From Fibrobacterota bacterium (GTDB lineage Bacteria; Fibrobacterota; Fibrobacteria; UBA11236), in assembly GCA_028287505.1 (NCBI GenBank), contig JAQBPN010000120.1, positions 1 to 64,000 of the forward strand: 64,000 bases of DNA, read 5' to 3'. This document shows, piece after piece, positions 49,154-64,000 of the stretch. The notes under the pieces were generated by a model. The model was not told where the DNA came from, made no database searches, and saw only the letters and a list, made by a program, of their open reading frames with translations. The stretch's first letter is position 1, and each line of letters starts with the position of its first letter. The position numbers were made by a program, and so were the translations under genes.

Positions 49154-50050
49154 TCAAGCGGGCTTCCGCGAATTCGCCGCGATTTTTGCGGGCAGCTTCC
49201 GCAATTCCAGAACCTTTTTCCTGCGCGTCGCATCCGCCAGCGGGCATTCATAGTCCCGGAATGACTTGCAGCTTTTGGGGAGGGCGATCTCGAAGAGTTC
49301 CAGCTTGTCCCCGGACGCCTGGTAGGCGAGATAGAAGGAACTGTCCGCATTGGACAGGACGAAGTAATCCATTTGCGGCATGTTGTCCAGCCAATCGATG
49401 GCCACCTGCAGGTGATGGTTGCGGCCCATCAACCCGTAAATCGAATCCCCCGCGAGCACCACGGTATCCCGGCACATGCGGATATCGCCGCAGCGGTAGG
49501 TTCCGTTCAACAGCAGGGTGTGGTACAGGTCGTAGATGGTTTCGATGCCGGCGTCCATCCTGATGAACTCGGTGGAAAATGCGGAGCCGGATTCCCAGGC
49601 GAGATAAAGCGAATCCTTGATCCGGCCCAAAGCCACGGCATCGGGCCGATCCGCCCCGGCCGGGTCCTTGATGAGGCCGGAATCCCGCATGGGCTTGAGG
49701 GCGGCGGTCAGGCCTTCATGGTTGCTGAAGTCCAGTTCCACCGAATCCCCGCGGACCCGCAGGCTCACGCTCCGGGCCGGGAACTTGGTCGAGAAGATCG
49801 AATGATTGTGCTTTAGCCCTTCGAGGTATTCCTTGCTGATGTAGAATCCGTCCAGATCATGGCTTACCGCCGCCTCACGCTTGGCCGGTTCCGGAGTCTG
49901 TTCCGCTTGCAGGGTATCGTCCGACGAGGATGCGGAGGTATCGGGGCCGATCCGGGCGGACCGGGAAACGCCGTTTCCGTGCTTCTTGTCGCACCCGATC
50001 AACAGGGACAGGACGCAAATCAGGCCGGCCGCTCCGGAAAGGCGCGTCAT
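49154..50050 (-). CDS. Hypothetical lipoprotein (298 aa)
   Basis: A signal with lipobox LLIGC is followed by a Ser/Thr/Glu-rich stalk (~25-65) and a beta-rich domain. Recognisable blocks include FYISKEYLEGLKHNHSIF and TYRCGDIRMCRDT, the latter with a probable disulfide. It ends in a basic tail. No family recognised. The start overlaps the stop of the upstream gene by one base (TGATG). Confidence 0.55.
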   Translation of the reverse strand: MTRLSGAAGLICVLSLLIGCDKKHGNGVSRSARIGPDTSASSSDDTLQAEQTPEPAKREAAVSHDLDGFYISKEYLEGLKHNHSIFSTKFPARSVSLRVRGDSVELDFSNHEGLTAALKPMRDSGLIKDPAGADRPDAVALGRIKDSLYLAWESGSAFSTEFIRMDAGIETIYDLYHTLLLNGTYRCGDIRMCRDTVVLAGDSIYGLMGRNHHLQVAIDWLDNMPQMDYFVLSNADSSFYLAYQASGDKLELFEIALPKSCKSFRDYECPLADATRRKKVLELRKLPAKIAANSRKPA

Positions 50051-50484
50051 CAGCCTTCTTTGGTTTTCACGAAGACATCGGCGGTATAGTCGTCATCCTC
50101 GGCGTCCAGGGGCTTTTCGCCCGTGGGCTCTTCCGATTCCGGCTCTTCGCCGCGACGGTAGGCCACGGTCATTTTCAGGCGCGAAAGGGGAATGATCGAT
50201 TGCTTGTCCATGACGAACAGCTTCTCTTCCTTGAAGTCGAAGGTGAGCACCTTGACCACTTCGCTGCCGTCGGCAGGAAGGTTTTCCGTGATGCCGTTGC
50301 TCGCCAATTCCTCGAAGGTCACCGCCCGGCCTTTCTTGGTATAGCCGAGCACGGCCTTGATGGCATACTTGGAAACGGAATCCAGGATCTCATCGTTGAT
50401 ATCCCCGATGTTCACCGAGGCATCGTTCTGGAACGCCAATTTGAAACTGCGGGTTTCGCAGACCACCTGATTCGCCAACGCCAT
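50050..50484 (-). CDS. Hypothetical cytosolic protein (144 aa)
   Basis: No signal. The N-terminal ~105 residues look folded (SFKLAFQNDASVNIGDIND, VLTFDFKEEKLFVMDKQ). The tail is acidic and disordered (EEPESEEPTGEKPLDAEDDD). Not recognised. First gene of the coupled run 50484-48772. Confidence 0.5.
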   Translation of the reverse strand: MALANQVVCETRSFKLAFQNDASVNIGDINDEILDSVSKYAIKAVLGYTKKGRAVTFEELASNGITENLPADGSEVVKVLTFDFKEEKLFVMDKQSIIPLSRLKMTVAYRRGEEPESEEPTGEKPLDAEDDDYTADVFVKTKEG

Positions 50485-50551
50485 GCATACCTGCCCGGTT
50501 CGAGTCGCCCTGGAACCCAGGGAGCGGCAGGCATCCCTGCGCAGCCCAAAT

Positions 50552-51076
50552 CTAGTTCACGGGGGCAAGGGGAGGCAATGCGATGGCGGGGTACTTTTCC
50601 GCGATTTTGCCGCGGAAATTCAGCAACTCCCGCGGCCGCACCCGGTGGACGAATTCCCCGTCATGGTAGAGCCCGCCGGCGGAAAGATCCAGGGTGATAT
50701 CCTCCATCTCATTGTGGGCGCAGGGATTGGACGGAAAGGGGTGCCGGTCGTTCCTGAGGATCTCCCATTCGGAGCCTTGCGCCTTGGTCAAGGCCGCGTA
50801 AACTCTCCGGATGCTGCCCGGCACTTCGATGGCGGAATCCTCGATCACGCCCAGGATGATGGCCGCGTCGAACTCGTGGTTTTCCAGCGCCCGGATCAGG
50901 CCCTCCGTGGGCAACTGCATTTTGCAGATGGTTTCGGGATTGGGCTCTCCCAGCACTTCCATCAGCGCCGAAAGCACGTCCACATACTCCACGTGGATTT
51001 TCCTCTCGGAATGGAAATACGCTTCCACCTCCGCGATCTGTCCGTTGAAGCGATTCATTTCCTGCCGGGAAAGCAT
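50552..51076 (-). CDS. Hypothetical protein (174 aa)
   Basis: No signal or membrane segment. Contains EVEAYFHSERKIHVEYVDVL and a hydrophobic core AAIILGVIEDSAI; the C-terminal third has VHRVRPRELLNFRGKIAEKY. I cannot assign a family. Starts 13 bp after the stop of the membrane-protein gene, so co-transcription is likely. Confidence 0.5.
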   Translation of the reverse strand: MLSRQEMNRFNGQIAEVEAYFHSERKIHVEYVDVLSALMEVLGEPNPETICKMQLPTEGLIRALENHEFDAAIILGVIEDSAIEVPGSIRRVYAALTKAQGSEWEILRNDRHPFPSNPCAHNEMEDITLDLSAGGLYHDGEFVHRVRPRELLNFRGKIAEKYPAIALPPLAPVN

Positions 51077-51089
51077 CGTCCGGAATCCG

Positions 51090-51593
51090 TCAGGTTTTGT
51101 GCAACCCGTCCCGCAGGGAGGGCAATGCCAGGCGCGGCAGGACCACGGCCAGGGTCGCGATGGACAGCCAGATGAAATTGAACGGCCTGTCGTAGACCTT
51201 GGCGTGGGAATAAAGGGCGATGGCGAGCAGGGCGACCAGGCCGAGATACCTGGTAATCCAATTGTCGTCCAGACCCGGTCTGAACCTGGCGATGAGGAGC
51301 CAGATCAACAGGGCCGGCAGGACGGAGCGGGGAACCGTAGCCAGCATGACCATCAGGATCAGATAGAAGGAGGTCACGATGCCGGAGAACACGGACCCGG
51401 AAGCATGGGTGGTTCTGGCCGTCGTGACCAGGGTGGCGACCAGGGCGAAAGCCAGCGGAAACAGGACCGCGCTGCAATAAATCCAGGTGACGGGTTTCCG
51501 CGTCCTGGCCAGCCAGTCGGACAATGTGGCGAACATTCCTTGCGATCGTGTCACTCTACCGTCCCTTTTCCCGATTGCCTGCGAGGCCATCAT
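51090..51593 (-). CDS. Hypothetical inner-membrane protein (167 aa)
   Basis: Four to five hydrophobic helices, with segments WIYCSAVLFPLAFALVATLV, VTSFYLILMVMLATV, VLPALLIWLLIA and IWLSIATLAVVL. The start is uncertain: ATG pair at 51593, GTG near 51557, or ATG at 51536, all with weak ribosome sites. No family recognised; no charged residues inside the helices that would suggest a channel or transporter type. Confidence 0.5.
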   Translation of the reverse strand: MMASQAIGKRDGRVTRSQGMFATLSDWLARTRKPVTWIYCSAVLFPLAFALVATLVTTARTTHASGSVFSGIVTSFYLILMVMLATVPRSVLPALLIWLLIARFRPGLDDNWITRYLGLVALLAIALYSHAKVYDRPFNFIWLSIATLAVVLPRLALPSLRDGLHKT

Positions 51594-51742
51594 GCCTGTA
51601 AATATAGCATGTAGAGAGGCGGTGATTTCATTCGCGTTGTCCGTAAAACGATATATCGAATAGGGAATGCGGGAACGAGAAGGTGACGGGCCCAGGCGGA
51701 GCGGAAGCCGCGCCATAAAGGCCCATCACCGGCACTTGGGGT

Positions 51743-51850
51743 TTAGCGGGGCTTGGAAGCCTTCTTTTCCCGCTTCTCCATCTTCTTCTCCTTGGCGCTC
51801 TTGACGGGGGCCTTCTTGGTTTCCTTCTTAGCGCTTTTTTCCTTGGACAT
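51743..51850 (-). CDS. Lys-rich 35-aa peptide
   Basis: The ATG at 51850 has AGGAG at 6 nt. Of 35 residues about 15 are Lys, in repeats of the type KSAKKETKKAPVKSAKEKK. There are no aromatic residues. Such peptides resemble ribosome- or nucleic-acid-binding tails or histone-like tails. The good ribosome site argues it is translated. Function unknown. Confidence 0.5.
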   Translation of the reverse strand: MSKEKSAKKETKKAPVKSAKEKKMEKREKKASKPR

Positions 51851-52000
51851 GATTACTCCTGGGATTTGGCATGAGCCTTGTTGAGCCACCGCAGTGGCTA
51901 CGTGGAAAAGTAAACAATTAATCCGGATTTGCACGCCTTCAAAGGGGAATCCATGCAAAAAGGATTTCGATCACCGGGCCGGGCAAATTATCTTAAGCCC

Positions 52001-52384
52001 ATGAAAACAGCCAAGTTCGTCTTCGTGGGATTGATCCTATTCGCCTTGCTGGGCTTGGGGTTCTATGCGTTCGGAAATTACAGCGATGGCTATCGGGCCG
52101 GCATCGTCATCAAACTCAGCCGCCGGGGTCTCCTCTTCAAAACCTATGAAGGCCAGTTGAACCTGGGCATGGGCATCAACGATGGAACGGGCTCCCTATC
52201 GGTTTCCAACGTCTGGGCTTTTTCCGTCAGGGCCAAGGATACCCTCGCCTTGGCGAGACTGGATTCCGCCATGATGAGCGGTAAGCGCGCCAAGGTCCAC
52301 TACCGGGAAAAATTCATCAAGGCGCCCTGGCGCGGGGACACCAAGTATCAGGTGTACAAAGTTGAGTTGACGGAGTCGCCCTAG
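52001..52384 (+). CDS. Conserved single-helix membrane protein (127 aa)
   Basis: Start at 52001 gives one N-terminal helix (FVFVGLILFALLGLGFYAFG) and an extracytoplasmic domain beginning YSDGYRAGIVIKLSRRG then LLFKTYEGQLNLG. These blocks match a widespread family of ~150-aa membrane-anchored proteins, often misnamed 6-phosphogluconate dehydrogenase in Bacteroidota. I see no enzyme motif. It shares a CTAG stop with the convergent barrel protein. Confidence 0.65.
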   Translation: MKTAKFVFVGLILFALLGLGFYAFGNYSDGYRAGIVIKLSRRGLLFKTYEGQLNLGMGINDGTGSLSVSNVWAFSVRAKDTLALARLDSAMMSGKRAKVHYREKFIKAPWRGDTKYQVYKVELTESP

Positions 52385-52950
52385 CCTCCTATCAGACCTG
52401 TAAAGCTGATTTGAAGGGAAAAAGTCTGTTCGCTCTGGCTGTCCATGGTGGTATAGGTGAAAGTGGGCTGAAGGTTGAGGAAAAAGGACCTGCCCACCTG
52501 GAATTTGCATCCGGCATAAATCGGCATGTAGATTCCTCCGGCCTCATCCGAAATTTCGGCGCCGAAGGGATTGTCCTGTTTGAAGGAAGTGGAAATACGC
52601 CCTATCGACATCCCGAAATACGGCGTCGCGGCGCCCTCGGAAGGCATGGCGAAGCCGGCATTGGCCCCGTATATCAAGCTGGTCAGGCTGACGGTTTCGC
52701 TCCAGCGGCTATTGAAATTCAGCAAGGGGCCGAGATAGAATCCGGGGGCGATGCAATAGAAATTGAGGATGGGACCCGCGATCAATTCGGAATTGTTTTC
52801 CCCCTTGTCGACCATATGCACCATGAACGCCCCGCCGCCGCCCATTTCAACGGCGCCGGGATGGAACCTGTTCTGGCAATGGCCGTTTTTCAGGCATACG
52901 GACATCAATGCGAAAAGAAATAGTGGGAATAAGCGGAATAGGCGGCGCAT
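52381..52950 (-). CDS. Small outer-membrane beta-barrel protein
   Basis: AGGAG lies 6 nt before the ATG. A signal peptide (LFPLFLFALMSVCLKNGHCQ) is followed by ~165 residues of alternating strands with Gly and aromatic residues. It ends in SLQISFTGLIGG, as in eight-stranded OmpA/OmpX-like or OMP_b-brl proteins. No ligand predicted. Confidence 0.65.
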   Translation of the reverse strand: MRRLFRLFPLFLFALMSVCLKNGHCQNRFHPGAVEMGGGGAFMVHMVDKGENNSELIAGPILNFYCIAPGFYLGPLLNFNSRWSETVSLTSLIYGANAGFAMPSEGAATPYFGMSIGRISTSFKQDNPFGAEISDEAGGIYMPIYAGCKFQVGRSFFLNLQPTFTYTTMDSQSEQTFSLQISFTGLIGG

Positions 52951-53038
52951 GCAAGCTCCTGCTTTCAGTTCAAATGTTTTCGATCAGCGCGGTTCAAAAC
53001 GGGGACCAGGCGGTCCCGCCGGAAAAGATAATCACCAA

Positions 53039-53467
53039 TCAGGCGCGATAGGTATCCGGCCGCCACTGCTTGATGGATTTTTTGATGGCTTCGCCCCTGA
53101 GCTTTTCCGCCACTGCGCGGGCGGCCAGTTCCGGGAACTCTTCGTTCGAGGCGAAACGCAAGGCCACGATCTGGCCCTTGCCCAGGCCGTCCGGCAAAGG
53201 CTTCCCGGTCAGGAGATAATGCCGGAAATTTTCTTCCGCCCGGATGGCCCGGTCCTGGACTTTGTGGACCATCACGCTGGAGTTGAACCAGCCGAGCAGC
53301 AATGCGCCGCCGGTCAGTACCGGAAGGATTGCGGTAAGCCTTCCTCCCAGGATTTCCGGGCAGCATAGGTTGGCCAGGGCTCCGAAGAAAACCAGAGAGG
53401 CGGTGACGGGGAGGTAATAGCGGCGAATGGGATAGCGACGATGGGTTGCGTAATTTTGGATTTGCAT
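53039..53467 (-). CDS. DUF6526 family membrane protein
   Basis: 142 aa. QIQNYATHRRY at the N-terminus, two central hydrophobic helices, and the C-terminal RHYLLTGKPLPDG, then IVALRFASNEEFPELAARAV and IKKSIKQWRPDTYRA, match DUF6526. Role unknown. Monocistronic; its promoter lies in the 194-bp gap shared with the truncated TIGR02147 gene. Confidence 0.8.
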   Translation of the reverse strand: MQIQNYATHRRYPIRRYYLPVTASLVFFGALANLCCPEILGGRLTAILPVLTGGALLLGWFNSSVMVHKVQDRAIRAEENFRHYLLTGKPLPDGLGKGQIVALRFASNEEFPELAARAVAEKLRGEAIKKSIKQWRPDTYRA

Positions 53468-53661
53468 GGTCGTGATATAGCAAATCCGGACGAAATGGCC
53501 TCCATCCGGACGGAATGGCCGGGGTGGCCCGATTTTTTAAGACGTTAAATCCAAAGAAGCAAAAAGCCCCAATCTTCCGGGGTCCGCGAGCGTACTCCAG
53601 GGAGAACGATTTCCAAAAGGAATCCGGCGTGGTGATATTGAATGCGCGCTAAAATGGACTT

Positions 53662-54093
53662 ATGTCCGTTCCGATGCCCGTGATCTTCGATTACATGAAC
53701 TATCGCGATTTCCTGCGGGACTATTATCTGTGGCGCAAAAAAGCCACGCCATCCTTCTCCTATATGCTGTTCGCGCGCACGGTGGGATTCGCATCCAAAA
53801 GCTTTCTGCCGCATGTCATCGAAGGCAAAAAGGACCTGGCCCAGGAGTCCGTTTTCCAGATTGGCCAAGGGCTTGAACTGGACCTGAAAGCGATGTCCTA
53901 TTTCGAAGATCTCGTGGCTTTCAACCAGAGCAAGGACCCGAAAAAGCGCTCGCATTTCATCCTGAGCTCCCAGATGAAGCTCTTCTCCAACTGGTATCAT
54001 TCGACCATCCGGGAACTCGCGACGGTTTATGACTTCAAGGAGGATTATTCCGCCTTGGCCAAAATGGTGCAGCCGCGCATTTCGACGGCTCAG
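53662..54093 (+). pseudogene. Truncated TIGR02147 family gene
   Basis: The first ~144 residues are clear TIGR02147: FDYMNYRDFLRDYYLWRK, SYMLFARTVGFASKSFLPHV, KLFSNWYHSTIREL, and LAKMVQPRISTAQ. At this point the intact relative at 15961 continues with KAALRLLESLQLISRDAEG and ~110 more residues. Here the similarity stops dead, and the frame runs into unrelated sequence until 54345. The C-terminal half is missing, so the regulator is likely non-functional, though the HTH-like half could still be made. Confidence 0.75.
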
Positions 54094-55432
54094 GTCATCA
54101 CATCGCCAATGCGGACGATGCCAGTCTGCAATTCGGTACCGGGACTTCGCGCCCAGGACTCCCTGATTGCCGTCGCGGACCAAAAAGACGTCCGGGACCT
54201 CGGGGGCGCCGGACAGCCGGTCCAGGTTCAAGATCCATACCGCTCCGGGGTTCGACCTCCGCTGGTCCTACCGCAATCCCGCCAACCAGGGAGTCATTTA
54301 TATGATGACCGTGGCGGGAGCCCAGATATGGGCCACCGGGATTGAATTCGGAATCGACAATCGCACCGATGAAAGCAAGGTCGGACCGGGGGCCGCGTAT
54401 GATATCTTCGCGCCTTCGCCCAACACCTACAACCTCTTCGACACCAACAAATGGAACGATGCCCGCATCGTGATCGTCGGCGATAGCGGGGAGCGTTGGG
54501 ACAGGGATGTATCACGGACGGCTACCTGGGCTGGCAGGCCGATCACGGCGGCGCGTGGTTGATCCGCAGCCTCCGCATCGGCATCGATCGCGCCGACGAA
54601 AACAACGACCATCAGAATGGCGCCGTCTTCTTTTTCACCGGCGGCTTCGGCACCGCCGCGCTCAACCGCATGGCGTGGAACACCAAGGAAAACAGCATCG
54701 TCGTGGCCTCATGGGGAACCATCGCCGGCAATTGGCCCAACGGGGGCTCGAAAAAGCCGCACTGGAAGATGACCATCGCGGACAATCCCAGCAGCTTCGA
54801 AATGAAAGGCATCTTTTCCCGAGCGGGCGGATTGCTGGTGCAATTCACCAAGCCGGTGGACAAGGCGACCGTGGCCGCGGGAGCGTTCACCGTCAACCAA
54901 TCGAACTACCATCGCACCGCCACATACGGCTGCTGCGTGGATGGCGCCGAGTCCCGGACGGTTTCCCAGGCTACCGCCACCAACGACGGAACGGCCGTGT
55001 TCATCAAGATCGACGGCATCAAGAACAACCATCCCGGTAGCGCCCTCAACGATTATGTCACCTACCTCAAACTCGGGGGTATCAAATCGGCCACTGGGCA
55101 ATCGCTCTTCTACAGCGAGGCCTGGTACACCTTGAACTACCAATCCCAGAAGGCATTCGACCCGGCCGCTACCGTCGCCGTGGCCCCTCGTCCGGGCGCG
55201 AAGCTCGCGAAGGCGATGGCGTATCGCGTCCAGGGAATGGATGTCAAGGTCAGCGTGGATCTGGAAGGCGAGTATGGCCTGGTGCTGGCGGATCTTTCCG
55301 GGCGCGAGATCGCGTCCCGATCCGGACGCGGAGCCTCCGAATTCGCCTTCCAGGCGCCCGGGGCCCGAGGCTTGTACCTTCTGCAGCTTGCGCCAAGGCG
55401 GAGTAAGCTACTCGCGCCCCATCGCCTTCTAA
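54094..55432 (+). pseudogene. Decayed gene for a secreted DUF1080/lectin-fold protein
   Basis: Pieces of one protein appear in successive frames. ANADDASLQFGTG is near 54110. Then, in another frame, come FDLRWSYRNPANQGVIYMM and IWATGIEFGIDN, followed by NKWNDARIVIVG, matching the DUF1080 (3-keto-disaccharide hydrolase-like) fold. After a shift at about 54490-54510 there is GGLLVQFTKPVDKATVAAG through EAWYTLN. A further shift at about 55390 reaches the end GVSYSRPIAF. The tail LVLADLSGREI...GLYLLQL is a Fibrobacter/T9SS-like sorting domain. The 5' end with the signal peptide is absent. At least three frameshifts plus truncation make this a pseudogene. Confidence 0.7.
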
Positions 55433-55696
55433 TGCGGTTATGCCGCCCTTGGGGGCGGCCCACCCGACCATTCAACCTCCGCTTTCTGGAAAAAGGGATC
55501 CCGCGTCCCTGTAAAAAAGTCAGTCAAAATTCCCGAAATCTGCCCCCAAGAGTGCCTTTTTTAACCATATTTGGCCACCAATTCTCAAATACCCCAACCA
55601 ACTGTAAGAGTACCCGACATTTTCTATTGGATGCCTACTACCCATAAAAGTGTTTATGACTATTGCCTCAATCGGGCAAACCAAGGGAGTTCCCAA
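55433..55696. other. Intergenic region before the sigma-factor gene
   Basis: It contains a hairpin GCCGCCC/GGGCGGC (55442-55459) just after the pseudogene. The following DNA becomes AT-rich (55560-55680) and probably holds the sigma-factor promoter. No gene seen. The open frame from 55571 to 55696 has no ribosome site and no family similarity. Confidence 0.4.
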
Positions 55697-56629
55697 GTGA
55701 ACAAATCGACCGAAATGTCCTCGTCCTCTTCGGCAACCGAAACGCTTCCGGTTACCCCCCGCCCCAAAGCAACCCGGGCCAAGAAACTGGAGTTCGTCAA
55801 GGACGATAGCGCGCTCACCTCCTACTTGAACGATATCAGGAAGGCGAAAAACCTGACCTTGGCGGAGGAACAAGCCCTGGCCTCCCGGATCCAAAGCGGC
55901 GACAGTTCCGCGATCAACAGCCTCGTCGAGGCCAACCTGAAATTCGTGGTCGCCGTCTGCCGCAACTACCAATACCAGGGAATGCCCATGGGTGACCTCA
56001 TCAATGAAGGCAACCTCGGCCTCATCCGCGCCGCGCGGCGTTTCGACGGCAGCATGAATTTCAAGTTCATCTCCTATGCGGTATGGTGGATCCGCCAAGG
56101 CATCCTCACCGCCCTGGCGGAGCAGTCCCGGGTCATGAACATTTCCGCCGGCAAGATCACCGTGATGCATCGCATCGGCAAAGCCAGCCAGAGGCTGGAA
56201 CAGACCCTTGGCCGTCAGCCCACCATGCAGGAAGTGGCCGTGCACATGGAAATGACGGAAAAGGAAGTGGCCGAGTGCCTGCAATTGGCCACCAAACCGA
56301 TTTCACTGAACCGGCCTGCCGGCAGCGAAGAAGACGGCAACCTGGTGGAAGACGGCATTCCGGATCTCAATGCCCCCGGCTCGGACGATGCGGCCATGAA
56401 GACCATCCTGGGCAAGAACATGGAAAGCCTGCTGGGCACCTTGGATGAGCGGGAAGAAAGCGTCATCCGTCTCTACTACGGCATCGGCTTACCCAACACC
56501 CTTACCTTGAACGAAATCTCCGATCGCTTCGACCTGACGCGGGAACGCATCCGCCAGATCAAGGAAAAGGCATTGCAGAAACTGCGCCACCCTTCGCGCG
56601 TCAAGCACCTGGCCCTTTTCCGCGGCTGA
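55697..56629 (+). CDS. RpoD-like sigma-70 factor, short form
   Basis: I start at the GTG at 55697, which has AAGGGAG at 6 nt. The 310-aa protein lacks region 1.1. Region 1.2 is LTSYLNDIRKAKNLTLAEEQ. Region 2 is LVEANLKFVVAVCRNYQYQG through FKFISYAVWWIRQGILTAL. Region 3 follows, and region 4.2 is LNEISDRFDLTRERIRQIKE. The lack of region 1.1 and the length recall the primary sigma of Bacteroidota. However, the junction after region 2.4 (SRVMNISAGKI) departs from the usual VRLP form, so a group 2 role is possible. Followed by a strong terminator. Confidence 0.85.
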   Translation: MNKSTEMSSSSSATETLPVTPRPKATRAKKLEFVKDDSALTSYLNDIRKAKNLTLAEEQALASRIQSGDSSAINSLVEANLKFVVAVCRNYQYQGMPMGDLINEGNLGLIRAARRFDGSMNFKFISYAVWWIRQGILTALAEQSRVMNISAGKITVMHRIGKASQRLEQTLGRQPTMQEVAVHMEMTEKEVAECLQLATKPISLNRPAGSEEDGNLVEDGIPDLNAPGSDDAAMKTILGKNMESLLGTLDEREESVIRLYYGIGLPNTLTLNEISDRFDLTRERIRQIKEKALQKLRHPSRVKHLALFRG

Positions 56630-56682
56630 AATCCGGGGGGAGTTCTATCTCCTCCACGGCCACTCTGTAACCCATCACATGG

Positions 56683-56723
56683 TAGACCTTGGGAACCAAA
56701 CGTCCCAAGGTCTATCTGTTTTT
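56683..56723 (+). terminator. Rho-independent terminator of the sigma-factor gene
   Basis: A perfect 12-bp stem (TAGACCTTGGGA at 56683-56694, TCCCAAGGTCTA at 56703-56714) with an 8-nt loop is followed by TCTGTTTTT. Confidence 0.9.
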
Positions 56724-56755
56724 ACTTCACGGTTGATTGTGTCCTGGGCCATTCT

Positions 56756-57274
56756 TCACTGAGCCTGCACGGGCGATTCGGCGGGTCGGCTCCGGATCAT
56801 GATCGCCACCAGTTCCCGGGTCCTGGTCAACAGCGCCAATGCCAACAACAGGTGGAAAACCGCCTGCACGCAAAAACCGGCCGCTTCGGTTTTTCCCGGC
56901 GTGTAAAAACCCGCCATGACGTTGAACGTGGTGACCGTGTAGTACAGGAATTGGCCGAAGATGTGGATGCCGAACAGCTTGATCCCGATGCCCAGCAGCT
57001 TCGCGTATTCCGGGTCGTTGCCTAATTGATCGTCTCCTCCGACAAAGCCGTCTTTCAGGATCAGGTTCAATATTCCGGCCGGATAGAACGTCAGATAAAT
57101 GCCGGTGAACAGATCCAAAAGCCCGTGGAGAACCACCCCTTCCAGGGAATGTTGGCGCAGTTCGCCATACCCAACAAGCAAATTGATGATGCTCATGGCC
57201 TGGGAGAAGAAAAAGTAGATGAGGATCAACCCCTGGATCCTCATTCCAATGGCCAGCCACTTTACATAGGGCAT
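56756..57274 (-). CDS. Hypothetical membrane protein (172 aa)
   Basis: The start at 57274 has GGGAGG upstream. Four hydrophobic helices are visible: IQGLILIYFFFSQAMSIINL, VVLHGLLDLFTGIYL, LFGIHIFGQFLYYTVTTF and AVFHLLLALALL. An acidic cytosolic or periplasmic loop (GGDDQLGNDPEYAK) lies between the second and third. Family unknown. Convergent with the sigma-factor gene, whose terminator lies 33 bp away. Confidence 0.6.
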   Translation of the reverse strand: MPYVKWLAIGMRIQGLILIYFFFSQAMSIINLLVGYGELRQHSLEGVVLHGLLDLFTGIYLTFYPAGILNLILKDGFVGGDDQLGNDPEYAKLLGIGIKLFGIHIFGQFLYYTVTTFNVMAGFYTPGKTEAAGFCVQAVFHLLLALALLTRTRELVAIMIRSRPAESPVQAQ

Positions 57275-57376
57275 TGCAACCTCCCGGTACCGGATTGATT
57301 CGATGGAACAGCCTTGGCGCGAGCCTAAAGGATAGCATCCCGGCCAATTTTTCCCAAACACTGATGGAAAGAGGGG

Positions 57377-58330
57377 TCAATCCAGACCGATGAATTCCGA
57401 TCCTTCGGCCACATCGTCGATATACACCGTGGAGGGTTGGCTGGGATCCGCGCAATCGTTCCGAAGAGCGCTATTGGAATACCACCCTCCCAAGAGGATT
57501 TTATTCAACTTGGTTGCGGCGCCGGCCTTACCCCTGATGTCAAGGCCGCCTTTCGAACCCTGAAGCCGTCCGTCTATCCAGAGAGTGACGGATCCATCCG
57601 CGGATCCGGGAGTATTCAAAACAACCTGGTATTCCACCGCATACCAGCGGCCGCGCTCGAAATGGGCCGGGACGATCAGGTGGCCCCAATCGTGACCCTC
57701 GGGCTTTCCATTGTAGAACAGCCCCAGGTCCTGCATTTCCGTGAGCCCGCATTGATCCACGTCCCCGGAACTGCGCACGGTCATGATGATGTCGATGTCG
57801 TTCGTCTGGGTCGCATGATTGTAGGATCGGATGCGGCCCACCTTGATGCCTTGGCCGAAATCGAAACCCTCCGCGAAATTGTAGTAGGCGCGCACGTTCA
57901 CGACGTCCGCGGCCATGGAAAGGGTGGCCCCGCCCCGGCTTTCATTCTTATCGTACGTCACTTCCAAGGCCTTGCGGCCGGAGCGGCTGGTCTTGCCCAC
58001 GGCAAGCTGCGCGCCAACGGGTCCGATGCTTCCCCAATGACCGCAGGGGGTGTGGGCATATCCGGAAGCCAAGCGGTCGTCCCAACACGCGGAAGACTCG
58101 TCCTCCAGATCACTGCGGAAGACGGGGGCGCCAGGTTCCTTGGTCAACGGAATGCCTTCGTCGGGGTCCAAGCCGGATTCGGTCGCCAGGCCGGCCAATC
58201 TCACCACGCCATGCTCGCCCTCCCCATTGCCATTGAGGTCGCACGCGGTCAGATGGATTGATCCGGCTGCGCCAAGGAGAGTCAGAAACAAGAGTCGGAA
58301 GGATAGCGGGGATTTTCCGTTGAAATACAT
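57377..58330 (-). CDS. Lipoprotein with lectin/polysaccharide-lyase-like jelly roll
   Basis: Using the ATG at 58330, a signal with lipobox HLTAC is followed by ~270 residues of beta-sandwich. GRKALEVTYDKNESRGGATL, NVRAYYNFAEGFDF, FERGRWYAVEYQVVLNTPG and the concluding LLGGWYSNSA resemble PL14/heparinase-I-type concanavalin-A-like folds, which bind or cleave acidic polysaccharides. Catalytic residues cannot be fixed from sequence alone. A TTG at 58375 is an alternative start but lacks a ribosome site. Confidence 0.6.
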   Translation of the reverse strand: MYFNGKSPLSFRLLFLTLLGAAGSIHLTACDLNGNGEGEHGVVRLAGLATESGLDPDEGIPLTKEPGAPVFRSDLEDESSACWDDRLASGYAHTPCGHWGSIGPVGAQLAVGKTSRSGRKALEVTYDKNESRGGATLSMAADVVNVRAYYNFAEGFDFGQGIKVGRIRSYNHATQTNDIDIIMTVRSSGDVDQCGLTEMQDLGLFYNGKPEGHDWGHLIVPAHFERGRWYAVEYQVVLNTPGSADGSVTLWIDGRLQGSKGGLDIRGKAGAATKLNKILLGGWYSNSALRNDCADPSQPSTVYIDDVAEGSEFIGLD

Positions 58331-58433
58331 GCCAGAAAATAATTCGCGGAACAAGGGGGTGGTTGGGATTTCCAATATGATTTTCCGCTTCGGAAAACCC
58401 CGGCGGAAAAACCGGAAACTATTCCGACATGCG

Positions 58434-60587
58434 CTAGGTAGGCGTTGAGCCCGAGAGCGCGCGCTTCATCTTGAGCAAGGATTGGATTTTCTTCAGGAAT
58501 GCGCCCGGGTAGAAGGGCTTGGCGAGAAAGAAGGATTCACCGAAATCGGAAACCGGGAACTCGTAGGTTTCCGCCGCATAGCCCGATATGAACAGGATGT
58601 TGACGTCGGGATATTGCTTCTTCAGATTGACCGCCAGCTCGATCCCGCCCATCTTATCCATCAAAACGTCGGTGACGATAAGATCCAGATGGGGAGGGTA
58701 GGAAGCCACCTTTTCCAAGGCATCCACTCCATTGCAGGCCTCGATCACCCTGTAGCCTGTCTGGGTCAGGATTTGGACGATCAACTTCCGGACCACGGTT
58801 TCATCTTCCACCACCAGGATTGTCTCTCCGGAGCCGAGGTTGGGCGCGGACTTCTGGATCGGCTTATGCTCGTGGACCGCGCCTTCCGCCATGGGCAGAA
58901 GGATCTTGAACATCGACCCCTTGTCGACCTTGCTGAAAACCTGGATGTACCCGTTCATCTGGCGGACGATTCCGAATGCCGTGGAAAGGCCGAGGCCGGA
59001 GCCTTTGCCGAAATCCTTGGTGGTGAAGAATGGCTCGAACAGCCTGTCGAGGGTTTCCGCGCTCATCCCGTGCCCGGTGTCCGTCACTTCGATGACGGCG
59101 TATCTCCCCGGAGGCGGCCCTTCCCCGCCCTCTTTCAGCAATTCGCCCACGGTCCCGGATGCGTCCTGTTTCGCCAGGTCCACTTCCAGGGTACGTATGC
59201 CCAAGGTTCCGCCCTCCTGCATGGAATCCCTGGCGTTGAGCGCGATATTGATGAGTACTTGCTGGATCTTGGCCTCGTCCATGTCCGCCTTGAGAGCCTT
59301 CTCCGACAAATCGATTTCTATCCGGATGTTTTCCCCGATAAGCCGATCCAGGAGCTTGCGGCATTCTTCAACCACGTCGTTGATAGGCCGTGTCTTCAAA
59401 GCTATGACCTGCTTCCGGCTGTAGGCCAGAAGCTGGCTGGTGAGGACCACGGCGCGATCGCCGGCCTTTTTCACCTCGGTCAGATTCGACAGGATGACCG
59501 GCTCCTGGGTCATGGCCAGGGTAAGGTCCGTGAACCCCAGAATGGCATGGAGGAGATTGTTGAAGTCGTGGGCAATGCCTCCGGCCAGTCTACCGATGGC
59601 CTCCATTTTCTGGGATTGCCTCTGTTTCTGCACGCTTTGGACCAGGGCCTTCTCGGCCTGGATCTGGACCCGGATATCGCTGATTACAAGCAGGCTTCCA
59701 TCGCCTGTAGCCAAGATGGAATGGAAGCAATGGGTGGGAATGCGGGTGCCGTCGGCTTGGACAAGCAATGCGCGGAAGGACTGCTTTCCGGAAACCAGGG
59801 GGCGGCCCACGGTGAAATCCGGAATGGGAAGGGCGACGTCCGGATCCGGCTCGAACTGGATCCGATCGAAGAACAGCTTTCCGATGAGGGCGCCTTCGGG
59901 AAGGCCGAAAAGCCGCGCCGAGGCCCGGTTCTGGAGAATGACGCGGTCCTGTTGATCCATCAGGATCAATCCCTCGCTCACGTTGTCGGTGATCGATTTC
60001 GTCAGTTGCAATTGATAATGGAGCTGCCCGTTGCGGACGGTGGATTGGATTTCCGCGCGCTTTCGATCGGTAATATCGGTCAGGCTGATCAGCCCTCCCG
60101 TGCACGCCATCTTGGCATCCAGAATCGGCTTGGCATCGATTTGGAAGTAACGGATTTCCCCGTCCTGACGCTGATGGGACATGTCGATGCCCGTCATGGG
60201 AACGCCGCCGGCCAGCCAATCGGCCGGAAACTCCCTGCTGCTCCCGGATCTGACCCCGATCGGCCGCAGAAAAACCTCGGAATGGAAAGGCGCGTTTTCC
60301 GGTAGGTGTCCGAAAAGCCTTTTTCCCGAATCGTTTACCTGGAGAATGCGATTGGCCGAATCCACGATGAAGGTGGGATTGTCCACCAGATTGAAGAGGG
60401 AATCGGCGATGCTGCCCGGCTTCATGATATTGCGGAGATCTTCTCCATGCAGGCCTGACGCCGCTTGTGCATCCGCATTGTGGTGAACGATAGCCGACGG
60501 AATGGAGTCATCTTCCGCGGCCCTGGTGAGCGCCAAGGCCAACGCCTTATCCGATTCCGGGGTCAGGTTTTCCACGATGCCTGCCAT
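58434..60587 (-). CDS. PAS-PAS hybrid histidine kinase with receiver, output partner of KaiBC
   Basis: 717 aa, soluble (no membrane helix). Two PAS domains (~62-180 and ~195-310) precede a DHp/CA core. H340 in GGIAHDFNNLLHAILG is the phosphoacceptor. N451 lies in NIALNARDSM, and DTGHGM (503-508) and GLGLS (531-535) bind ATP. A C-terminal receiver (~588-710) has E594/D595, the phospho-accepting D640, S668 and K690. It begins 6 nt after kaiB, so it is part of the kai operon. In cyanobacteria the SasA kinase reads the KaiC state, and in some other bacteria a histidine kinase sits next to kaiBC. No DNA-binding output is fused, so an outside partner is needed. Confidence 0.88.
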   Translation of the reverse strand: MAGIVENLTPESDKALALALTRAAEDDSIPSAIVHHNADAQAASGLHGEDLRNIMKPGSIADSLFNLVDNPTFIVDSANRILQVNDSGKRLFGHLPENAPFHSEVFLRPIGVRSGSSREFPADWLAGGVPMTGIDMSHQRQDGEIRYFQIDAKPILDAKMACTGGLISLTDITDRKRAEIQSTVRNGQLHYQLQLTKSITDNVSEGLILMDQQDRVILQNRASARLFGLPEGALIGKLFFDRIQFEPDPDVALPIPDFTVGRPLVSGKQSFRALLVQADGTRIPTHCFHSILATGDGSLLVISDIRVQIQAEKALVQSVQKQRQSQKMEAIGRLAGGIAHDFNNLLHAILGFTDLTLAMTQEPVILSNLTEVKKAGDRAVVLTSQLLAYSRKQVIALKTRPINDVVEECRKLLDRLIGENIRIEIDLSEKALKADMDEAKIQQVLINIALNARDSMQEGGTLGIRTLEVDLAKQDASGTVGELLKEGGEGPPPGRYAVIEVTDTGHGMSAETLDRLFEPFFTTKDFGKGSGLGLSTAFGIVRQMNGYIQVFSKVDKGSMFKILLPMAEGAVHEHKPIQKSAPNLGSGETILVVEDETVVRKLIVQILTQTGYRVIEACNGVDALEKVASYPPHLDLIVTDVLMDKMGGIELAVNLKKQYPDVNILFISGYAAETYEFPVSDFGESFFLAKPFYPGAFLKKIQSLLKMKRALSGSTPT

Positions 60588-60593
60588 CCTCGG

Positions 60594-60926
60594 TTACTTC
60601 ACCCGCGTGATGTTCAAGCCCATGAGGACCTGGTCTTCATCGGAAAGATCGCCGATGATCCGGCTGATGGGAGTGGGCAGGCTCCGGACCAGGGTCGGAA
60701 TCGCCAGGATCTGGTTCGTGCGCGCAAGCGCCGGTTCCTCAATCAGGTCGATGACTTCGATTTCATAGCGTCCCTTGAGATGCTCCTCGCAGATTCTCCT
60801 GAGATTGGTGATTGCCGTCAGGGATTTCGGCGTCTGGCCGGCGACGTACAACTTGAGCAGGAAGGTTTCGGTTTCCTCCTCCAGAACCGGGCCCGGCGGC
60901 TTTGGTTCATACTTGTCAATTGTCAT
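60594..60926 (-). CDS. kaiB: Circadian-clock-type protein KaiB
   Basis: The start at 60926 has GGGGAG upstream; the long frame before it lies antisense-like within kaiC. 110 aa with the full KaiB signature: [45 protein letters not shown], and [17 protein letters not shown]. The Gly-Asp of IIGDLS matches the residues that control KaiB fold switching in cyanobacteria. KaiB binds the KaiC CI ring and drives the timer through its cycle. It sits between kaiC and the hybrid kinase. Confidence 0.92.
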
Positions 60927-60966
60927 AATAGCTCCCCCCCCGATGCGGTAAGGTTCCAGGGCGTTT

Positions 60967-62706
60967 TCAATCTGATTTCCTCGACATGCCCATTTCCTCG
61001 CGGTCCACGGCCGTGCGGGATTGGACCTTCCGCTTTTCTTCCATACGTTGCAACATTTCCACTTCCTCGGCCTGGAAAGTGGCCTGCATCGCCAGCCATT
61101 GGGCTTCCAAGGCCTGCTTCTTACGATCCATCTTCTGCTGCATGCTATCAATTTCCTGCTGCAGGGTCAGGGCGAAAGCCTTATCCTCGGCTTCCATGGT
61201 GAGGCGGCTGGACCCGGTGAGCACCCCGGAAGGGCCTACATAGACATCCTTGAGATCGATGCCGGTGGAAGAAAGCAGGAACTCGCGGATCTGGTTGGAA
61301 TGGGCCATGCCGCGCGACTTGATGATATACATGCCGCGGTTCCGCTCCCCGTTGTGCTCGATATCCCGCAACAGGAGCCAGGTATCGATAAGGGAGGAAA
61401 CGCCTCCCTTGGTCAGTTCCACGCTACCGCCATCGCCTCCAGCGGTCAAGCTGGTGAATAGCGCCGTAATGCCTTCGCTTTTCAGATAGTCGAGCAGGCG
61501 CACCAGCATGGAGTTGACCTCGCTGTTGGTGCCCATGGCATCCAGGTTGGTCACCGGATCGATGATCACCACGTTCGGCGAGAACTCGCGTATCAGCTTA
61601 TGGATCTTGGCCAGATGCATTTCCAGTCCGTATACGGAGGGCCGCGATGCATGGAACCGGAGCAGACCGGAGTCGATCCAGGGATGCAAGTCCAATCCGA
61701 TGGACTCCATGTTCCGGAGGATTTGCGACGGGGACTCTTCGAAAGCGAGGTAAATGCAACGCTCTCCCCGGGCGCAGACGGCGTTGGCGAAGAAGTTGGC
61801 GATGCTGGTCTTGCCGCTTCCCGCGGTGCCGGAAACGAGGATGGTGCTCCCACGGAAATATCCCTTGCCTCCCAGCATGGCGTCCAGCCTGGGAATGCCC
61901 GTGGATATCCGCTCAGTCAGGGCTTTATGGTCCAGGCTCATGGAGGATACCGGAAGTACGGAAATCCCCCCTTCGTCGATCAGGAAAGGATATTCGTTGG
62001 TGCCATGCACGGATCCCCGGTACTTGGCGATGCGCAGACGCCGCGTGGAAATCTGGTCCACAATGCGATGATCGAGCATCAGAACGCAGTCGGAAACGTA
62101 TTCCTCCATCCCCTGGCGGGTCAAGGTGCCTTCGCCCTTTTCCGCGGTGATGATGGCCGTCAGGTCTCTATCCTTCAGCCAGCGGAACAGCCTGCGGACC
62201 TCCTCGCGCAAAAGCGCGGTATTGTCGAATCCCCCGAACAGGACTTCCAAGGTATCGATGGAAATCCTCTTGGCGCCCACGGAATCCACCGCGAATTGCA
62301 AGCGGAGGAAAAGGCCTTCCAGATCATAGGCGCCCGCGATGGCGATTGCGCCCTTGTCGACATGGATGTATTCCACGACCAGCTTGCCATCGTCTTCCAG
62401 CTGCCTGAGATTGAATCCCAGGGAGGCGACGTTCTTGGCCAGGTCTTCCGGCGTTTCCTCGAAGGCGACGAAGACTCCGGGTTCGCCGAACTCCAGGATT
62501 CCCCGGATGAGGAATTCCATGGCCAGCATAGTCTTGCCGCAACCCGCGCCGCCGCAGACCAAGGTGGGCCGGCCGCGGGGAAGGCCGCCCAGAGTGATTT
62601 CATCCAGACCCTGGATTCCCGTCGGCGCCTTGAGCAGTTTTGCTTCAGGAGGAATTTTGGTCTGTGTCGGATCGGGGGGGCTCATGGTTTGTGTCGAAGG
62701 GGACAT
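60967..62706 (-). CDS. kaiC: Circadian-clock-type ATPase/kinase KaiC with C-terminal coiled coil
   Basis: I use the ATG at 62706, which has AGAAGGA 7 nt upstream. The 579-aa protein has the duplicated RecA-like CI and CII domains. Walker A motifs are GGAGCGKT (52-59) and GTAGSGKT (293-300), and the paired catalytic Glu residues are at 83-84 and 323-324. In CII, VS437S438LIDT aligns with the S431/T432 phosphosites of Synechococcus KaiC, so both positions keep a hydroxyl. After CII, residues ~505-562 form a charged helix predicted as coiled coil ([20 protein letters not shown]) in place of the short A-loop tail that binds KaiA. Rhodobacter sphaeroides KaiC, which runs a KaiA-free hourglass, has such an extension. 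First gene of the operon. Confidence 0.93.
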
Positions 62707-63208
62707 GTGAAAGTCCTTCTGGGTTGACTCGGTTTCAATTTCCATCCGGATCAACCGCGACACCGAACGAATAGACAATCAAAGATGCGATTCCGCTACC
62801 ACTGAAGATATACGTCCGTATATCATTAATAACATACGAAATCTTCGCAAAAGCCGATGTTTGCGATAATAAAGAAAGGACGGAAAGTTGGGTAACATGT
62901 ATGTGACCCCCCGGCACTCGCTCGCTGTTCGGGAGATTTGACCTTTTCCCTGCCGGAGGACTGGCGCCGGGGTTGGACTATGATCGAAAGCTTGTGTCCC
63001 TAAGAACGGTTTAATGGGATCCGTTAGAAAGACTTATTTCGACTATTTCGACCCGGCTCAGATTGCCGCTCAGGCGGGAATGGGAAGCGTGGAATTCAAT
63101 CCGATTTCGCCATTAGTTGGGTTCATTACTAGGGTTGAGAAGGACCCTGGGCGGGAGCCTAGGGGATGGAAATCGGCGGATTTGGACCCAAAGGGAGCCC
63201 GGAAGCGA
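62707..63208. other. 502-bp region upstream of kaiC
   Basis: I see no convincing gene. The kaiC-proximal part (62780-62880) is unusually AT-rich and contains the inverted repeat at 62807. A weak promoter-like pair on the minus strand, TTGCGA near 62845-62850 and AATGAT near 62822-62827, could serve kaiC. The rest (62930-63208) is GC-rich and has no clear motif. Confidence 0.4.
62807..62824. promoter_or_regulatory. Inverted repeat in the kaiC upstream region (candidate operator)
   Basis: GATATACG and CGTATATC, perfect 8-bp arms, are separated by two bases. It lies 101 bp upstream of the kaiC start in the AT-rich segment. Symmetric sites of this size are typical for dimeric regulators. No regulator gene is adjacent; the histidine-kinase output or a TIGR02147-type factor could be the binder, which is a guess. 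Confidence 0.4.
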
Positions 63209-63427
63209 TTACTCGTCCCTTTCCACCTGCTCGTTGTAAGCGTCCAGACCCTCTTCGGTAATGGACCAACTGCCCCGTTCGCCATTAATGACATGTCCCT
63301 GGGTCACCAGGTGCTCCATGGCGGATTCCACCTCGCTCTCCTCCCCGACATGCTCGATGAACTCCTCGGTGAAATGCTGGCCTTCGTCGGACAGGAACGC
63401 GAGAATCTTCATTTGAAATTCTTCCAT
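63209..63427 (-). CDS. Small winged-helix-like protein (72 aa)
   Basis: I start at the ATG at 63427, before the folded part. The sequence MEEFQMKILAFLSDEG, EEFIEHVGEESEVESAME, HLVTQGHVI and GSWSITEEGLDAYNE has the pattern of a small winged-helix domain with a closing EGLDAY helix, as in PadR/MarR-like modules. Very acidic overall, so DNA binding is not assured. No family name assigned. Confidence 0.5.
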   Translation of the reverse strand: MEEFQMKILAFLSDEGQHFTEEFIEHVGEESEVESAMEHLVTQGHVINGERGSWSITEEGLDAYNEQVERDE

Positions 63428-63540
63428 GGAAACCGCCTTGATAATGGATTGGTGGGTACATTCTCCAATTACGACACCCTGCGTGCAAGCTACAACCAGA
63501 ATATAATCGCTGGGAAGCGCCCCCGAAGGGCGCGCTTGAG

Positions 63541-63810
63541 CTACCCCAGCAAACTTTCTTTCCAATCCCTGATGGTTGCCTTGGCAACGATTCCCTCCGA
63601 CACAAATGGATCTTCCTTCACGAACCGCTCCGCGGCATCCCTATTCGCGAAAACGCCCATCGACCCTTCCATAGGATTCGCCCAGGTACCGATGGCAATC
63701 ACTTCGCCTTTGGCGTGAAAGGCGTCGACCAGTTTCTTATGCCGCGGATATGCCTCCATAATCTTTTCCATGGGCACATTCGCGGTTTCGTAGAAGATCA
63801 CAGCTTTCAT
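63541..63810 (-). CDS. YciI family protein
   Basis: 89 aa from the ATG at 63810. KAVIFYETANVPMEKI, YPRHKKLVDAFHAKGEVIAIGTW, SMGVFANRDAAERFVKEDPFV and ATIRDW reproduce the YciI fold, with the conserved His and Asp of its putative active site (HKKL, EDPF). Members are small dimeric proteins; some act as enzymes on aromatic lactones, most are uncharacterised. Confidence 0.85.
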   Translation of the reverse strand: MKAVIFYETANVPMEKIMEAYPRHKKLVDAFHAKGEVIAIGTWANPMEGSMGVFANRDAAERFVKEDPFVSEGIVAKATIRDWKESLLG

Positions 63811-63894
63811 TTTTCCGGTTCCCATTTCTATCGTTGAATAACTTGCCGTCAAAAGATAATAGTCCGAGGTGGCCGCATCTCCGACACGGATTGG

Positions 63895-64000
63895 TTACAA
63901 CCCCACAATCCAGTCTTTTATTTCTCCCAGGGTATAGGCCGCATCGGAAATAAAGTGGCCTTTTCCCTCCAGTACCCTCAATACCGCGCGCCCTCCCCTT
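63895..64000 (-). CDS. C-terminal end of a hydrolase-like protein (partial)
   Basis: A frame enters from the right edge on the minus strand and stops at 63895-63897, leaving ~34 residues. The end LRVLEGKGHFISDAAYTLGE followed by IKDWI resembles the C-terminus of alpha/beta hydrolases, where the catalytic His sits in a G-x-G-H motif. Too short for certainty. Confidence 0.45.
   Translation of the reverse strand, partial: RGGRAVLRVLEGKGHFISDAAYTLGEIKDWIVGL

Follow-up and report, generated by a model that had tools for sequence, protein, structure and literature searches.

The window, a stretch of 64,000 nucleotides from a Fibrobacterota contig, carried on its minus strand a compact operon in which kaiC was the first gene, followed by kaiB and a hybrid histidine kinase gene (Table 1). 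The kaiC frame opened with an ATG at position 62706, with an AAGGA site ahead of it, and closed with a TGA at 60969-60967. The promoter scan gave no match, and Rfam gave none within positions 50000-64000. A TIGR02147 (Fsuc_second) protein was encoded nearby, a hint of Fibrobacterota.

Table 1. Features of the kaiC-kaiB-hybrid histidine kinase operon (window positions)
Feature	Coordinates	Strand	Basis
kaiC (KaiC2 type), 579 aa + stop	60967..62706	(-)	translation; NF006799; PDB 8dba; Foldseek 8fwj
Ser437 + Ser438 codons, predicted phosphosite pair	61393..61398	(-)	counterparts of S413/S414 in R. sphaeroides; 60/63 sequences Ser-Ser
C-terminal helix, predicted coiled-coil tail, residues 498-576	60979..61215	(-)	AlphaFold2; 58/63 sequences; gap-free alignment with R. 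sphaeroides coil
kaiB, 110 aa + stop	60594..60926	(-)	Pfam KaiB 86.7 bits; ATG; 40 bases past kaiC stop
Hybrid histidine kinase, PAS-PAS-HisKA-HATPase_c-receiver, likely output	58434..60587	(-)	Pfam domains; 6 bases past kaiB stop

The KaiC protein consisted of two RecA-like ATPase domains (CI and CII) followed by a C-terminal helix. Two stretches matched the KaiC ATPase family PF06745 in Pfam, as in a two-domain KaiC, and the NCBIfam KaiC model NF006799 scored 731 bits (cut-off 408), while TIGR02655, a model built on cyanobacterial-type KaiC, scored 362 bits, under its cut-off of 546. The closest PDB entry by sequence was 8dba, a dodecamer of Rhodobacter sphaeroides KaiC (E=1.6e-199; 55% identity), with an alignment that reached into the tail. 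Both catalytic glutamate pairs (E83/E84 and E323/E324) and the R-finger R230 were kept, as were W443, Y460 and R474 of the R. sphaeroides allosteric network, which showed conservative changes at I462 and I473. T221 occupied an alignment column that we take to be the position of the R-linker arginine of cyanobacterial CI; the column held T, S, I or M in 63 of 63 rows, and to judge from the alignment the missing arginine is as expected for KaiC2. With its two domains, two serines, C-terminal extension and no CI R-linker arginine, the window protein is an ordinary member of the known KaiC2 branch, which has a KaiB partner and no KaiA.

Conservation was assessed in a sample of 63 sequences, made up of the window protein, R. 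sphaeroides KaiC and 61 relatives from Pseudomonadota, Verrucomicrobiota, Bacteroidota, Myxococcota, methanogenic archaea and others. The homologues were retrieved with peptide patterns from the window protein, which biases the sample towards relatives of the same kind, and the Ser-Ser and tail counts given below therefore apply to the subgroup rather than to KaiC at large. kaiB lay directly downstream of kaiC in all 61 relative loci, and in 45 of these kaiC was followed by a tandem pair of kaiB-like frames, as against a single one in the window and in its same-genus relatives, where a related kinase frame also came after kaiB. In a quick tree with several long branches, poorly supported deep forks and no broad KaiC1/KaiC3 sample, the window KaiC clustered with those of same-genus genomes (support 100, starred), and a wider fork of 24 rows (support 84, unstarred) held both the window and R. 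sphaeroides proteins, to the exclusion of the single KaiC1-type outgroup. The KaiC2 of a further genome of the same family (G009, locus L070) clustered with Verrucomicrobiota (100, starred), outside the window clade, which suggests a separate transfer.

Residues Ser437 and Ser438 occupied the alignment columns of S413/S414 in R. sphaeroides KaiC and of the S-T pair (S431/T432) in the cyanobacterial type. The replacement of the cyanobacterial pair by two serines, put forward in a preliminary description of this DNA, was thus borne out by translation and alignment, the serines being predicted phosphosites. Across the sample the pair was Ser-Ser in 60 sequences, Thr-Ala in two and Thr-Ser in one. 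The two Thr-Ala proteins (L014 and L015, near-identical KaiC2 of Opitutae) had an intact tail, and with Thr-Ala in place of Ser-Ser the second phosphosite was lost in both. A full tail was present in 58 of the 63 sequences, across many phyla. In published work it is chiefly members of the kaiC2 subgroup, with its two serines, that have an extension of ~50 residues (PMC10076222), and two serines are also given for KaiC2 elsewhere (PMC5520375). Given these reports and the counts of 60 and 58 out of 63, serine pair and tail are above chance and form a hallmark of the kaiC2 subgroup; that Ser-Ser might be a peculiarity of the window protein was ruled out. As hallmarks already published, the pair and the tail teach little that is new.

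For the tail, AlphaFold2 (single chain; window KaiC and 45 relatives as input; mean pLDDT 83) predicted one unbroken helix of 79 residues (498-576), with block pLDDT values mostly of 84-92 up to residue ~560 that dropped to 76 and then 57 in the last two blocks. The model argues against a disordered tail and agrees with the C-terminal coiled coil predicted earlier, for which a length of ~60 residues was slightly short; counted from position 500 on, the extension comprised ~80 residues, compared with ~50 in the kaiC2 definition. In a Foldseek search the top ranks were taken by chains of the R. sphaeroides dodecamer (8fwj, E=1e-69, 557 alignment columns, the match running into the tail), and the coil-less R. 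sphaeroides construct 8db3 was within the top 17; every cyanobacterial-type KaiC structure ranked lower, with matches ending at ~466-478 columns. The tail aligned with the R. sphaeroides coil free of gaps, at only 25% identity. Hydrophobic residues were kept across homologues at positions 526, 533, 537, 540, 544, 551 and 555, which in the window KaiC include a bulky face of L533, W537, M540, F544 and M551, and a second strip was mostly alanine (A532, A535, A539, A542 and A546 in the window). The R. sphaeroides coil packs via Ala/Arg in one state and via Leu/Ile in the other (PMC10076222), and by this analogy the bulky and alanine faces fit two packing states, to each of which one face may be assigned. 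Four KaiC2-like homologues (L040, L054, L055 and L057) carried Ser-Ser and no coiled-coil tail.

Tested along the full length of the tail, simple hydrophobic periodicity reached significance neither in the window protein (p=0.86) nor in the R. sphaeroides coil of known structure (p=0.45), so this test was set aside as uninformative. A windowed heptad test on the family-average tail gave p=0.003-0.013 (at 35 columns p=0.003, with an equal fit in 0.3% of shuffles of the columns). It was picked after the whole-tail test had failed, and all its p-values are to be read in that light. Taken singly, the window tail gave p=0.035 at 21 residues and p=0.22-0.50 at 28-35 residues, and the R. sphaeroides tail gave p=0.08-0.17, though its coiled coil has been solved, so that the test has little power on a single sequence. 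A long helix in a monomer model, with weak periodicity of its own, is compatible with a bundle and does not prove one.

A search for KaiA (PF07688) gave no match in the genome to which the window belongs (assembly 98.7% complete; positive control in Synechococcus) and none in nine genomes of the same family. A KaiA-driven oscillator is therefore excluded, as far as an assembly of this completeness allows, and the earlier view of a tail of R. sphaeroides type in place of a KaiA-type tail is upheld by the gap-free alignment, together with the negative search for kaiA. The genome search found a single KaiB, the one downstream of kaiC, and no second phosphosite-bearing KaiC in the same genome; a two-domain KaiC-like homologue (contig C24, 7270-8682) lacked both the sites and the tail, and was followed by a histidine kinase-like frame. 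Among the nine same-family genomes, KaiC2 and KaiB were both present in four (G001, G002, G004 and G009) and both missing from the other five, and the presence of KaiC2 was patchy even inside the genus. G002 had two kaiC2 copies, and in G004 (contig C76, locus L067) a partial kaiC, a kaiB and a kinase lay just upstream of a complete kaiC-kaiB, in what looks like a tandem duplication.

The preliminary description had also held that the R. sphaeroides extension stacks two hexamers and removes the need for KaiA. Its first half agrees with the published work, in which two hexamers are linked and stabilised through the coil, and dephosphorylation is fast only when the coil is there (PMC10076222). 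The second half failed on deletion data from the same study: R. sphaeroides KaiC lacking the coil autophosphorylated at 5.5 per hour, compared with 7.4 per hour for the wild type, and exchanged nucleotide at 19.1 compared with 18.0 per hour, both nearly unchanged, which rules out the coil as the source of KaiA-independence. The study credits the exposed A-loop with constitutive, KaiA-independent autophosphorylation, and its discussion attributes KaiA-independence to the entire extended tail (PMC10076222).

The best inference for the window operon is an hourglass-type KaiBC timer with kinase readout, and a KaiA-independent KaiB-KaiC2 timer of stacked hexamers, in which Ser438/Ser437 autophosphorylation is reset by ATP/ADP and KaiB and read out by the kinase, is given a probability of about 0.7. 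On the model of R. sphaeroides KaiC, 55% identical, two hexamers would be joined end to end via a 12-helix bundle of their C-terminal tails, and CII would autophosphorylate Ser438 and then Ser437 in the absence of KaiA because the A-loop is held away from its inhibitory position. A drop in the ATP/ADP ratio and the binding of KaiB to CI would then raise ATPase activity and let the serine pair dephosphorylate, which a register change in the coil would speed up; in R. sphaeroides, KaiB and a low ATP/ADP ratio drive dephosphorylation (PMC10076222). The adjacent PAS-PAS hybrid histidine kinase would sense the KaiB/KaiC state and, going by gene order, is probably its reader. The KaiBC systems of R. 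sphaeroides and Rhodopseudomonas palustris, both without KaiA, are hourglass or strongly damped daily timers (PMC10076222; PMC4794148). Of the earlier proposal of an hourglass or damped timer rather than a KaiA-driven oscillator, the exclusion of the latter stands; sequence alone cannot separate an hourglass from a damped timer.

The strongest competitor, with chances somewhat short of even, is a KaiC2 switch for stress or energy state that has no daily function, in which phosphorylation tracks ATP/ADP and KaiB relays the state to the histidine kinase. The genome gave no match to a photosynthetic reaction centre or a phytochrome, and none to a rhodopsin, the last a weak result from a search without a working positive control; with no reaction centre, a daily swing in ATP/ADP is not obvious, and the input may be other than day and night. 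Such a switch would also suit the patchy distribution of KaiC2 within the genus, and the KaiC of Legionella pneumophila is tied to stress response (PMC5520375); against it, the KaiC2 of R. palustris supports adaptive growth in rhythmic conditions (PMC5520375, PMC4794148). The biochemistry of switch and hourglass would be identical, so the two are inseparable at the level of sequence. It is improbable that KaiC remains a single hexamer, with a tail that forms a lone helix or engages some other partner, as the weak heptad pattern of the window sequence and the few tail-less homologues might suggest, since the tail aligns gap-free with a solved coil and its core positions are kept in 58 sequences. 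A self-sustained circadian oscillator without KaiA is very improbable: the window does encode KaiB and a CII with both phosphosites intact, but nothing speaks for it directly, and those kaiC2 systems that have been characterised behave like an hourglass or show strong damping, with an ATPase that is not temperature compensated.

The window operon extends the known range of the KaiB-KaiC2 module by one lineage, a probably non-phototrophic one of Fibrobacterota, and does so in compact form, with a kinase that is a candidate reader of the timer next to kaiB and kaiC. Our literature search found no paper joining KaiC, KaiB and Fibrobacter. A tentative suggestion, on the doubtful side, is that the module has a direct link to a single PAS hybrid kinase and responds to an input other than light, acting as a timer or a sensor of energy state whose readout is simple.

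Of the known systems, R. sphaeroides KaiC (8DBA, 8FWI, 8FWJ, 8DB3; PMC10076222) shares with the window protein the two RecA-like domains, the Ser-Ser pair, the catalytic Glu pairs, the allosteric Trp and Arg, a C-terminal helix of similar length, a kaiB partner and the lack of kaiA. It differs in 45% of residues overall and 75% in the tail, where the coil core of the window KaiC contains W537 and F544; on the window side, the one whose gene neighbourhood was considered, kaiB is immediately followed by a hybrid histidine kinase gene. The KaiC2 of R. palustris, likened here by its published description (PMC4794148), has the same Thr-Ser-Ser sites (T432, S437 and S438 in the window), a longer C-terminal region and no KaiA, and differs in its photosynthetic, nitrogen-fixing host, for which daily rhythms have been shown. 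Synechococcus elongatus KaiC1 (1TF7, 2GBL), at ~38-39% identity in the structure alignment, has the double RecA-like fold and KaiB partner in common with the window protein, but is set apart by its Ser-Thr pair, its KaiA-binding tail without a coiled coil, its R-linker arginine and the presence of KaiA.
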